Source: Bacteroides sp. SM23_62 (GTDB lineage Bacteria > Bacteroidota > Bacteroidia > Bacteroidales > SM23-62). Taken from it: a stretch of 49,574 nucleotides of DNA. Made by a program: the position numbers and the translations under genes. The notes under the pieces were generated by a model. The model did not search any database. It was not told the DNA's origin and saw nothing but the letters and a program-made list of their open reading frames with translations. This document shows, piece after piece, positions 30,564 through 34,990 of the stretch; the stretch's first letter is position 1, and the number at the start of each line of letters is the position of its first letter. The stretch spans positions 1 through 49,574 of the forward strand of contig LJUP01000005.1 in NCBI GenBank assembly GCA_001303955.1, written 5' to 3'.

Positions 30564-30651
30564 GCAAACCTGCATCAAAAACACTTTCTTTTTTTTGAGT
30601 TATTCATTCTCTTTCGCTTTTTTTGCAGTCGCAAACCAAAATGAATCCATT

Positions 30652-31266
30652 ATGACGACCAGAATTTTCAGCCTGTTTATATTGCTTGTCCTGGCAATTT
30701 CCTGTGGACAACAAACCGGTAAAACCGCAGACCTTGGGGAATTGGAATTATCTGAAGTGACCGTCCAATCACTCCTTGCAGATGCATCGCCATTCGTTGA
30801 AAAACCCGTATCCATCCAGGGAAGGGTTGTTCATGTTTGCCGTCATGGCGGACAGCGTTTATTTATCGTTGGCGAGGACGGAGAAGATCGCTTTCGCATC
30901 ACGGTGGGTGAAAATATATCTGAATTCGATGTCGAGCTGGAGGGCAGTATGATTGAGGTAAACGGTATTGTCAAGGAATTGATCATCGATGAAACTTACC
31001 TGGCCGAATGGGAGGCTGAAGTTACGGAAGGTTCAAAACACAGCCGCGGGGAAGGACATGCAGGCGGTGTAGGAAATGGTGACAACCATGGTGGGGTCCA
31101 GGTTGCTGACGGTGAAGAAGCGGAAGGGGAACACGACGCTGAAATGCAGATGGCAGCACAGCTGAAAAGAATACAGGAAGCAAGGGATGAAATTGCAGCA
31201 AGCGGCAAAGACCATCTCTCAGACTACTGGATTGAAACCGTAGAATTCAAGGTCATTGCAGAATAG
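30652..31266 (+). CDS. OB-fold-like lipoprotein with His-rich insert
   Basis: About 204 residues starting with a lipoprotein signal (MTTRIFSLFILLVLAISCGQQ, acylated Cys18). The core VEKPVSIQGRVVHVCRHGGQRLFIVGEDGEDRFRITVGENISEFDVELEGSMIEVNGIVKELIIDETYLAEWE reads as an OB-fold barrel, with a C-x-H pair in HVCRHGG that could bind metal. It is followed by a Gly/His/Glu-rich stretch (SKHSRGEGHAGGVGNGDNHGGV...GEHDAEM) and a helical tail ending YWIETVEFKVI. I recognise the core as a family of unknown function in Bacteroidales. ATG 30652 gives the lipobox; the track start at 30595 does not. The PepSY-TM gene follows 34 bases later. Confidence 0.75.
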   Translation: MTTRIFSLFILLVLAISCGQQTGKTADLGELELSEVTVQSLLADASPFVEKPVSIQGRVVHVCRHGGQRLFIVGEDGEDRFRITVGENISEFDVELEGSMIEVNGIVKELIIDETYLAEWEAEVTEGSKHSRGEGHAGGVGNGDNHGGVQVADGEEAEGEHDAEMQMAAQLKRIQEARDEIAASGKDHLSDYWIETVEFKVIAE

Positions 31267-31300
31267 CCCCTGATCATTCACAAACCTCCATTCGTTTCCA

Positions 31301-31855
31301 ATGAAAATCCGGAAATGGCTCCGTATCATACACCGGGATATGGGATACATCTTTTTTGGCATGTCCCTGATCTACGGTGTTTCAGGGATTGCCCTTAACC
31401 ACCTGGACGACTGGAATCCGGATTACATCATCAGGATTTCCGAATCTTCCCTGCAGGATGTCCCCGCCGCTGATGACATTTCCAGGGAGGTGGCGGGATC
31501 ACTGGTCAGGCAAATTGACCAGCATTATCAGTACAGGAGCCATTTTTTCCCCAGTCGGGGTATACTGAAGATATTCATCAAGCAGGGATCCGTTACGATA
31601 AACCTGGACAGCGGCCAGGCAACCATCGAGGTGATAAAAAGGCGGCCTGTTTTCAGGGAAATGAACTTCCTGCACTACAACAAACCGAAAAAACTCTGGA
31701 CCTGGTTTTCAGATGGATTTGCCCTCGCACTGATCCTTCTGGCAATTTCCGGCCTGTTTATGATCCGGGGAAGAAAGGGCATCACCGGGAGAGGTGCCTG
31801 GCTTACTGCCCTTGGAATTCTTATTCCCGTCATATTCCTCATCCTGTACCTGTAA
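31301..31855 (+). CDS. PepSY-associated transmembrane helix protein
   Basis: A 184-residue inner-membrane protein with one N-terminal helix (MGYIFFGMSLIYGVSGIALNH), an external domain of about 85 residues beginning LDDWNPDYIIRISESS, a re-entry motif REMNFLHYNKPKKLWTWFSDGFALALILLAISGLFM, and a last helix (WLTALGILIPVIFLILYL). The NHLDDWNP and LHYNKPK.LWTWFSD motifs are typical of PepSY_TM proteins, found with iron, copper or heme uptake systems. This is a short form with about three helices. Coupling to the upstream lipoprotein suggests a two-component envelope system, possibly for metal reduction or uptake; no TonB receptor is in the window. Confidence 0.85.
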   Translation: MKIRKWLRIIHRDMGYIFFGMSLIYGVSGIALNHLDDWNPDYIIRISESSLQDVPAADDISREVAGSLVRQIDQHYQYRSHFFPSRGILKIFIKQGSVTINLDSGQATIEVIKRRPVFREMNFLHYNKPKKLWTWFSDGFALALILLAISGLFMIRGRKGITGRGAWLTALGILIPVIFLILYL

Positions 31856-31912: not shown

Positions 31913-34900
31913 ATGAGTGAACAGATACTGAAGGCCCTGATGCAGCTTTTCGCCATTATTGCAAGGCCTGATAGTAGCAGGAGTGACAGGAGGACTGTTG
32001 TTGAAGCTTATCTGCAAAAGCAGCTGAACCACGAGATCGTTCAGGAATACCTGAAGGTATTTGACGAATACTATACACTTCACCAGGAAAAGCAAAAGGA
32101 ATCCGATAAAAGGGCCAGGAGGATTTCCGCCAGTTCTGTCAGGGTACTTAAGATCGCAACTGCCATCAATGAGGAACTTGCACAGCCACAGAAGATCATT
32201 GTGCTGATCCGTCTGCTCGAATTTGTCAGATCGGACAATGGAGAGATTACGGAACAGGAGATGGAATTCATCAGCACTGTGTCTGAGACCTTTAATGTGC
32301 TGGAGGAGGAATATGAGCAGATCAGGAACTTTGTGTTGTTTTCCCCTGAAGATGTCCCGGACAATGAAGACATCATGATGATTGACAGCAACCGGGATTT
32401 TAACCTGGAAAAATCCAAACATATTTATATTGAATCGATCAGGGGACAAATGAGGGTGTTGCATGTACCGAGTGCCAGGCTGTATTTTATCAGGTATATC
32501 GGTGAGAGTGAAATGTACATCAACAGTCAGTTGATCCAGGTGGATAAGGTATATGTGCTGAGCAGCGGTTCTTCGATCAAGAGCCAGCAGATCAAGCCCA
32601 TTTACTACAGCGATATCGTCAGCCGTTTCCAGCTTGACAAGATCAAGGACCGGATCACCTTTGAGGTCAGTAATGTGGAATACCGCTTCAAGAGCGGCGA
32701 GACAGGCTTACATAAGCTCAGCTTGAAGGAAGAATCCGGAAGGATGGTTGGCATCATGGGTGCCAGTGGTGCAGGAAAGTCAACCCTGTTGAACGTCCTG
32801 AACGGATCGGTCCCTCCCACCTCGGGCAGGGTACTTATCAACGGGGTGAACATATTCACGGAAAAAGAGAGGATCGAGGGGATTATCGGGCATGTATCCC
32901 AGGACGACCTGCTGATTGAAGAGTTGACGGTTTACCAGAACCTGTATTACAATGCCAAGCTGTGTTTTGATAATTATTCAGAAGAGCAGATCGTTGAATC
33001 GGTAAACCAAACCCTCGAAAACCTTGGATTATTTGAGATCCGTGATATACAGGTTGGCAGTCCCCTGAACAAGAAAATCAGCGGTGGCCAGCGGAAAAGG
33101 CTTAATATTGCGCTAGAATTGATCAGGGAACCATCCGTACTGTTCCTGGATGAACCTACCTCAGGCTTGTCTTCCAGGGATTCGGAAAACATCATGGACC
33201 TGCTGAAAGAACTCTCCCTGAAAGGAAAACTCGTTTTTGTAGTCATCCACCAGCCTTCTTCGGATATCTTCAAGATGTTTGACAATATGATCATCCTGGA
33301 TACGGGCGGTTGGATGATCTACGACGGAGATCCCATTGAGTCCATTGTCTATTTCAAAGAAAGGATACACCATGCCAATTGTAATGAAAGTGAGTGCCAG
33401 GTTTGCGGTAATGTGAATCCCGAACAGATCTTTAACATTGTTGAATCCAATGTAATCGATGAATATGGCAAGGCTACCAAGGTAAGGAAGATCTCCCCGA
33501 AAGAATGGCACGATCATTATTTGAAGAGGGAGTTGAAAAACGGCAGGAACTTTGAGCAGCATACCACCTTACCTGAGATCTCATTTAAAATCCCTGACAG
33601 ACTGAAACAATTACTGATCTTTGTCAAGCGAGATGTGCTGTCCAAGCTTTCAAACACCCAATACATGGTGATCAATTTCCTGGAAGCACCCTTACTGGCT
33701 TTCCTGCTGGCATATATCATCAAGTATTTTAATGTCAATGTCACCAATGTTCACGGTTACAACCTTGAAGGAAACGCCAACCTTCCCGTTTATATCTTTA
33801 TGTCTGTGATCGTTGCCATTTTCATGGGACTCACAGGCAGTGCCGAGGAGATCATAAAGGACCGGAAGATCAAAAAGAGGGAAGCTTTCCTGAACCTGAG
33901 CCGCTCAGGATACCTGCTTTCGAAGGTTGCCGTCCTGATGACCCTCTCAGCCATACAGGCCCTTTTGTTCGTGGTGATCGGCAACAGCATTATGGAGATC
34001 AAAGACATGTACTGGCAATACTGGCTGGCCCTTTTCAGTGCCTGGGTCTCATCCAACCTGATGGGACTGGTCATTTCAGACAGTTTCAAGACCGTGGTAA
34101 CCATCTATATCCTGATCCCTTTTCTGGTCATACCACAGATTATCCTGAGCGGAGTCATCGTAAAGTATGAGAAACTTAATCCAAAAATATCCTCTCCTAC
34201 CAGTATCCCGCTTTACGGTGAGATCATGACCGCCCGGTGGGCATACGAGGCCCTTGCAACCTACCAGTTCATGAACAATGATTACCAGTCTCAGTTCTAT
34301 CTATATGACAAGGTAATGAGCGAGGCCGGATACCGTAAGGACTACTGGACCATGGATCTGCTGAACAAGGTGGAAAGCATAGCACGGAATCTGCAAGATC
34401 CTGAAAAAGCCGAAGTCATTAAGCAACACCTCACCCTCCTCAGGGATGAAATCGGAGATGAACTGAAAAACAATTCACTCATCCCTTTTGATCACCTGGC
34501 GGACCTCACCCCCGAAAGGATCAGCGAAGATATACTCAATTCAACACGTAACTACCTGAACGATATCAGAGGGTACAATATTAAATTATACAATAAGGCC
34601 AATTCCAAGAAAGATAAACTAACCAAGGAACTTCAGCAAACCGAGGAAGAAAAGGAAGCGTTCTACAAGACAAAGCGGGAGCAGAACAATGAATCACTGG
34701 AAGAATTTGTGAAGAATTCCAATGTCAGGGACCGGATCATTCAGTACAAAAACCACCTGTACCAGAAAATCAATCCAATCTATATGGATCCGGAACATAA
34801 ACTGATAAAAGCACACTTCTACGCACCAAGAAAGCAGGTTTTCGGTAACTTTTTCAGCACTTTCGCTGTCAATATCACTGTCATTTGGATTATGACACTG

Positions 34901-34990
34901 ATCTTCTACATGATTCTCTACTACAGACTACTGAAGAAATTCCTCGATTTCTTCGAACAATTTAGCCATCGCAATAAACGGGAAGGTTGA
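31913..34990 (+). CDS. Large ABCG-like ABC half-transporter with TerB/FHA-like N-terminus and Cys cluster
   Basis: A 1025-residue protein. Residues 1-145 form a helical domain resembling TerB/tellurite-resistance folds (LMQLFAIIARPDSSRSDRRTVVEAYLQKQL); 160-250 is a beta-rich, FHA-like stretch (KSHIYIES.. VLHVPSARLYFIRYIGESEMYINSQ). The ABC domain has Walker A GASGAGKST (~285), signature ISGGQRKRL (~389) and VLFLDEPTSGLSSRDSENI (~408), an ABCG pattern. A four-ligand-like HHANCNESECQVCGN follows (~487). The ABC2-type membrane part (~585-745) has about six helices; after a soluble region with coiled coil (~890-930) a final helix (FSTFAVNITVIWIMTLIFYMILYY) lies near 980. The exporter substrate is unknown. 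It precedes the convergent siaBC genes. Confidence 0.85.
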   Translation: MSEQILKALMQLFAIIARPDSSRSDRRTVVEAYLQKQLNHEIVQEYLKVFDEYYTLHQEKQKESDKRARRISASSVRVLKIATAINEELAQPQKIIVLIRLLEFVRSDNGEITEQEMEFISTVSETFNVLEEEYEQIRNFVLFSPEDVPDNEDIMMIDSNRDFNLEKSKHIYIESIRGQMRVLHVPSARLYFIRYIGESEMYINSQLIQVDKVYVLSSGSSIKSQQIKPIYYSDIVSRFQLDKIKDRITFEVSNVEYRFKSGETGLHKLSLKEESGRMVGIMGASGAGKSTLLNVLNGSVPPTSGRVLINGVNIFTEKERIEGIIGHVSQDDLLIEELTVYQNLYYNAKLCFDNYSEEQIVESVNQTLENLGLFEIRDIQVGSPLNKKISGGQRKRLNIALELIREPSVLFLDEPTSGLSSRDSENIMDLLKELSLKGKLVFVVIHQPSSDIFKMFDNMIILDTGGWMIYDGDPIESIVYFKERIHHANCNESECQVCGNVNPEQIFNIVESNVIDEYGKATKVRKISPKEWHDHYLKRELKNGRNFEQHTTLPEISFKIPDRLKQLLIFVKRDVLSKLSNTQYMVINFLEAPLLAFLLAYIIKYFNVNVTNVHGYNLEGNANLPVYIFMSVIVAIFMGLTGSAEEIIKDRKIKKREAFLNLSRSGYLLSKVAVLMTLSAIQALLFVVIGNSIMEIKDMYWQYWLALFSAWVSSNLMGLVISDSFKTVVTIYILIPFLVIPQIILSGVIVKYEKLNPKISSPTSIPLYGEIMTARWAYEALATYQFMNNDYQSQFYLYDKVMSEAGYRKDYWTMDLLNKVESIARNLQDPEKAEVIKQHLTLLRDEIGDELKNNSLIPFDHLADLTPERISEDILNSTRNYLNDIRGYNIKLYNKANSKKDKLTKELQQTEEEKEAFYKTKREQNNESLEEFVKNSNVRDRIIQYKNHLYQKINPIYMDPEHKLIKAHFYAPRKQVFGNFFSTFAVNITVIWIMTLIFYMILYYRLLKKFLDFFEQFSHRNKREG

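Follow-up and report, generated by a model that had tools for sequence, protein, structure and literature searches.

A lipoprotein with a predicted OB fold and a short PepSY_TM_like_2 (PF16357) membrane protein are encoded by adjacent genes in Bacteroides sp. SM23_62, and the two genes form a phylum-wide module rather than a random adjacency. The two proteins may act as a transmembrane electron donor and a periplasmic metal-binding acceptor for the reductive release of a metal, most likely iron, a reading to which we give about an even chance. The membrane half is of an already known kind, while the OB-fold partner with its HxCxH motif appears to be undescribed, no description of such a lipoprotein having been found in the literature examined.

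Conservation of the gene pair

The window, by which we mean the whole 49.6-kb stretch of DNA that was analysed, is an entire contig. On its forward strand the lipoprotein gene (30652..31266, 204 aa; recognised from its ORF, signal peptide, a weak Pfam match, AlphaFold2, Foldseek and HHalign) is followed after 34 bases by the PepSY_TM_like_2 gene (31301..31855, 184 aa; recognised from Pfam, AlphaFold2 and alignment). ORFs and Pfam agree here with the original prediction, made from the sequence alone, of a lipoprotein with an HVCRHGG motif and a His/Glu/Gly-rich segment followed 34 bases later by a PepSY_TM protein. Among 60 relatives of the same order, the lipoprotein gene lies directly upstream, on the same strand, for 28 of the 33 PepSY matches, at distances of 14-385 bases, and among 396 genomes sampled evenly across the phylum the same holds for 35 of 57 strong matches. 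In genus-level comparisons where dS was computable, dN/dS came to about 0.05-0.22 in the lipoprotein gene and 0.05-0.11 in the PepSY gene. Because order and conservation hold phylum-wide and dN/dS is low, the pair represents more than chance, and since the neighbours differ between families, the pair itself is the conserved unit. The original prediction had been staked on conservation of the pair and of its Cys/His positions in other Bacteroidales, and both are conserved.

In the window the pair is preceded by an aspartyl-protease/PDZ gene and followed (31913-34990) by a gene for a 1025-aa fusion of TerB-like, ABC ATPase and ABC-2 membrane domains, which is also found after the pair across the genus and in a few further genomes (L047, L048, L058). 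At the position of the protease gene, upstream of the lipoprotein gene, locus L044 (1425-1742) has a 105-aa ORF, apparently a remnant of that gene, and L050 is similar. Neither the aspartyl-protease nor the ABC neighbour is an obligatory partner, both being missing next to the pair in most other families. A plasmid search gave no match, no Rfam elements were found near it, and a scan for sigma-70 promoters and terminators performed no better than chance level. The consensus of Bacteroidetes promoters is TAnnTTTG, and a block in which TTTTTTTG resembles it (30594..30625, forward strand; TTTG, 20 b, TTTTTTTG) lies upstream of the lipoprotein gene and is conserved in genus-level relatives; by this resemblance, it is a candidate promoter of the pair.

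The OB-fold lipoprotein

The lipoprotein has a signal peptide with C18, and its AlphaFold2 model (mean pLDDT 85, core >95) shows a confident OB barrel at about residues 52-112, a His/Glu/Gly-rich linker at about residues 124-169 (31021..31158, forward strand; from alignment and AlphaFold2) and a C-terminal helix and strand (residues 159-201). The OB fold, already part of the original prediction, is thus supported by the model, as well as by the best Foldseek matches, the OB subunits RPA14/RPA32 (E 8e-5), and by a weak Pfam match to tRNA_anti-codon (E 9.6e-4, under the cut-off); an NCBIfam search of both proteins returned nothing useful. The motif HVCRHGG (residues 61-67, H61-V-C63-R-H65-G-G; codons at 30832..30852, forward strand, from alignment) sits at the end of strand 1 in the OB model, and among 26 relatives no variation was seen at G57, H61, C63 or G105 and hardly any at H65; the constancy of H61, C63 and H65 applies to HxCxH-type partners. 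The linker contains 0-6 His among relatives, varies in length and sequence, and is modelled as disordered (pLDDT 50-60, low around residues 131-160). It is therefore lineage-variable, as had been suspected; its importance for function finds no backing in the unconserved sequence and low pLDDT, and the varying His number and length rule it out as the core metal site.

The kinship of the lipoprotein with DUF4920 (PF16267), a family for which no paper was found in the literature searched, had been missed by the original prediction. HHalign of the domain without its signal peptide against DUF4920 gave a probability of 98.7% (E 3.6e-16), with shuffled controls below 1%, and on this profile comparison the OB domain is a divergent DUF4920 relative. 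It carries HxCxHGG where DUF4920 has CxxxxGCW, and has a longer linker and C-terminal part; the window protein itself has neither a Pfam DUF4920 match nor a CxxxxGCW motif. Less closely related genomes encode DUF4920-type CxxxxGCW proteins at this position upstream of the PepSY gene, and partners of this type go with one branch of the PepSY tree (clade support 100/99). The PepSY columns H81, G96 and Y126 differ between HxCxH- and CxxxxCW-partnered proteins; since the CxxxxCW partners form a single clade, and so represent one event, we did not take these differences to prove that the two proteins touch.

DUF4920-like OB lipoproteins also occur without a PepSY partner (L115:4338-6576, L121:4141-6497), adjoining a gene that resembles a subunit of NADH dehydrogenase (NuoG-like) by its N-terminus. 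At two other loci (L135:9373-11331, L140:8054-10024) membrane 4Fe-4S (Fer4_5) proteins are encoded directly upstream of a DUF4920/PepSY pair and may provide a further electron donor.

The PepSY_TM_like_2 protein

The membrane protein matches PF16357 over residues 6-183 with 54.3 bits, against a Pfam gathering cut-off of 27. Since earlier work already counts PF16357 with the extracytosolic electron-transfer proteins that have a link to iron reduction (PMC8238504), the membrane half of the pair belongs to a known kind. Its AlphaFold2 model (mean pLDDT 90) places three TMs around one extracytosolic alpha/beta PepSY-like domain: TM1 with H11 and S28-G29, the periplasmic PepSY-like domain at residues 42-114, H125 followed by TM2 with S150-G151, and TM3 at residues 164-183. 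In 54 PepSY sequences H11 and H125 are invariant and H34 is nearly so. The signature of PepSY_TM proteins, a His ahead of each TM and (S/T)G at the TM end (PMC10866019), is thereby present twice, as H11...SG29 and H125...SG151. FoxB contains two sets of this kind, along with two hemes that are each coordinated by a pair of His (PMC13038864; PMC11334425), and in FoxB as in CrpH such His serve for haem and for metal reduction (PMC13038864). Having two of the His + TM + (S/T)G units known from the di-heme reductase FoxB, the PepSY protein looks like half of a FoxB, and we infer by analogy that two copies of it may make up one FoxB-like unit. This half-size, haem- and electron-transfer-like look had also escaped the original prediction. 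TM1 aligns with the TM starts of canonical PepSY_TM proteins; HHalign against single FoxB segments gave nothing significant except TM1-like stretches of other PepSY_TM proteins, and searches of the PDB by sequence and by fold (Foldseek E<=0.001) found no significant solved relative of the PepSY protein.

Genomic context and known systems

No TonB plug domain and no iron gene was found in the window, and the genome to which it belongs carries 55 TonB plug domains. The original observation that no TonB receptor lies nearby therefore stands for the whole contig, and the pair does stand alone here, but to conclude from this that the module is self-contained goes too far, since in a genome of the same order (L130) the pair is part of an operon with the order TonB receptor-DUF4876-DUF6850-OB lipoprotein-PepSY-ABC ATPase-permease-DUF4857. 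The same annotated gene content is found in Bacteroides thetaiotaomicron BT3633-BT3625, whose expression goes up 37-128-fold when iron is depleted (PMC10434189), and from gene order, annotation and the homologous loci BT3628/BT3629 are the apparent counterparts of the pair. In other genomes of the same class the PepSY gene comes directly after a TonB receptor gene (L109-L111, L150, L151, L154), and in two families of the phylum (f70, f72), as well as for a second copy in genome G070, it stands beside genes for CbiX-type lipoproteins; HmuY and a TonB receptor are also encoded at three CbiX-type loci (L127, L146, L148). In another genome (G407, L125:4820-6045) a lipoprotein with a flavin-reductase domain is encoded directly upstream of PepSY, in the usual slot of the OB lipoprotein. 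A metal-linked function, as had been suggested for the pair, is likely, because the homologous operon is iron-regulated (PMC10434189) and the partners of PepSY elsewhere include TonB, HmuY and CbiX.

At five loci of family f72 (L126, L128, L142, L143, L145) PepSY_TM_like_2 is flanked by CbiX-type lipoproteins, two of them in several cases, near TonB receptors; these chelatase-like periplasmic lipoproteins look like a system for the de-metallation of haem or tetrapyrroles. A cluster of TonB receptor, HmuY-like lipoprotein, CbiX-type lipoprotein and PepSY_TM_like_2 (L148:1607-5903) forms a putative compact operon for the uptake of haem iron that would include an electron donor of its own.

The window protein resembles the FoxB/PiuB-type reductases (FoxB, FpvG, FhuB, HiuB) in the His before the TM and the (S/T)G at its end and in the periplasmic PepSY fold; in relatives (L109-L111, L130, L151 and L154) the PepSY gene also has a TonB receptor gene beside it, which is absent in the window. 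It differs in having only three TMs and a single PepSY domain, against four and two in one FoxB chain, and in being paired with an OB lipoprotein. With the PepSY-like flavinylation systems (PF03929/PF16357; eLife 2021) it has in common the Pfam family and the character of a three-helix extracytosolic electron-transfer protein; those clusters carry ApbE and DUF2271, whereas the immediate neighbours in the window include no ApbE, DUF2271 or FMN-binding gene. The Xus system of B. thetaiotaomicron (XusABC, BT2063-2065) likewise combines a lipoprotein with an inner-membrane PepSY protein in iron uptake, but its lipoprotein XusB is a DUF4374 protein at the cell surface and a TonB transporter, XusA, goes with it, whereas the window pair has an OB-fold HxCxH lipoprotein and no transporter of its own.

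Proposed mechanism and alternative explanations

For the reading of the pair as electron donor and metal-binding acceptor, the following course of events may be envisaged. The half-size PepSY protein would bind haem b, probably as a homodimer that recreates the two bis-His hemes of FoxB, one through H11 on the cytoplasmic face and the other through H125, possibly together with H34, on the periplasmic face, and would take up electrons from a donor in the cytoplasm or from a quinol and pass them to the periplasmic side. The lipoprotein, facing the periplasm and presumably in contact with its membrane partner, would bind a metal or metal complex through H-x-C-x-H at the electron outlet, where it would either accept the electrons or carry the ion once this is reduced. 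The metal reduced would most likely be Fe(III) brought in by TonB receptors whose genes lie elsewhere in the genome, and the resulting Fe(II) would then be held or handed on for import.

Copper is the main rival to iron. The membrane protein could be a CrpH-like cupric reductase, and the OB protein, with its Cys/His (or Cys/CW), could carry the Cu(I) for the assembly of haem-copper oxidases, an explanation that we consider unlikely. CrpH of Bordetella is likewise a metal-linked PepSY_TM protein with conserved haem-type His, which it needs in supporting haem-copper oxidases (PMC13038864), and the partner motif contains thiols. COX1 is present in the genome of the window, and among the 60 relatives the presence of PepSY is associated with COX1 (20/11/8/21; Fisher p 0.005), so that copper in place of iron is allowed. 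However, CrpH is larger, has two His per membrane face and no described OB partner, and whereas members of its subfamily would be expected only alongside haem-copper oxidases, COX1 is missing from 11 of 31 PepSY-positive relatives, the near-complete G026, G046, G043 and G055 included. The homologous operon of B. thetaiotaomicron, moreover, answers to iron starvation, and the genes found in partner swaps are those for HmuY and CbiX-type proteins.

These same swaps bear on an explanation by haem, which we regard as distinctly unlikely: the OB lipoprotein would accept haem or a tetrapyrrole via H61/C63/H65, and electrons from PepSY would drive the reductive removal of iron from it. De-chelation by HmuS of B. 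thetaiotaomicron requires reduction by an electron route that is unknown (PMC12583661), and CbiX-type lipoproteins adjoin PepSY genes, in three loci together with HmuY and TonB receptors; yet this context belongs to loci without the OB lipoprotein, and neither HmuS nor HmuY was found adjoining the pair itself. That PepSY regulates a peptidase or helps in assembly, with the lipoprotein as its structural partner and no part played by redox or metal, is highly improbable, for although peptidase regulation was the role originally proposed for the PepSY domain (Yeats 2004, as cited in PMC8238504) and an aspartyl-protease/PDZ gene lies just upstream, that gene is no constant neighbour, its place in L044/L050 is taken by a 105-aa fragment, and the invariant His at the membrane faces and the iron-uptake contexts would be left unexplained.

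Returning to electron donation with metal release, a wider form of this reading, which we hold tentatively and rate somewhat below even, is that PF16357 proteins are half-size di-haem wires acting as homodimers, a shared electron outlet with swappable periplasmic acceptors, namely the OB-fold HxCxH lipoprotein, DUF4920 CxxxxGCW proteins, CbiX-type chelatases and flavin-reductase-like lipoproteins; the OB-fold HxCxH proteins would then be an undescribed class of periplasmic iron or copper carriers in Bacteroidota. How gut and environmental members of this phylum bring electrons across the inner membrane for the reduction of iron, copper and haem is largely open. A widespread two-gene module with strongly iron-regulated apparent counterparts in BT3628 and BT3629 is a directly testable candidate for this task, and would give the DUF4920-like family of OB proteins a first proposal for its function.
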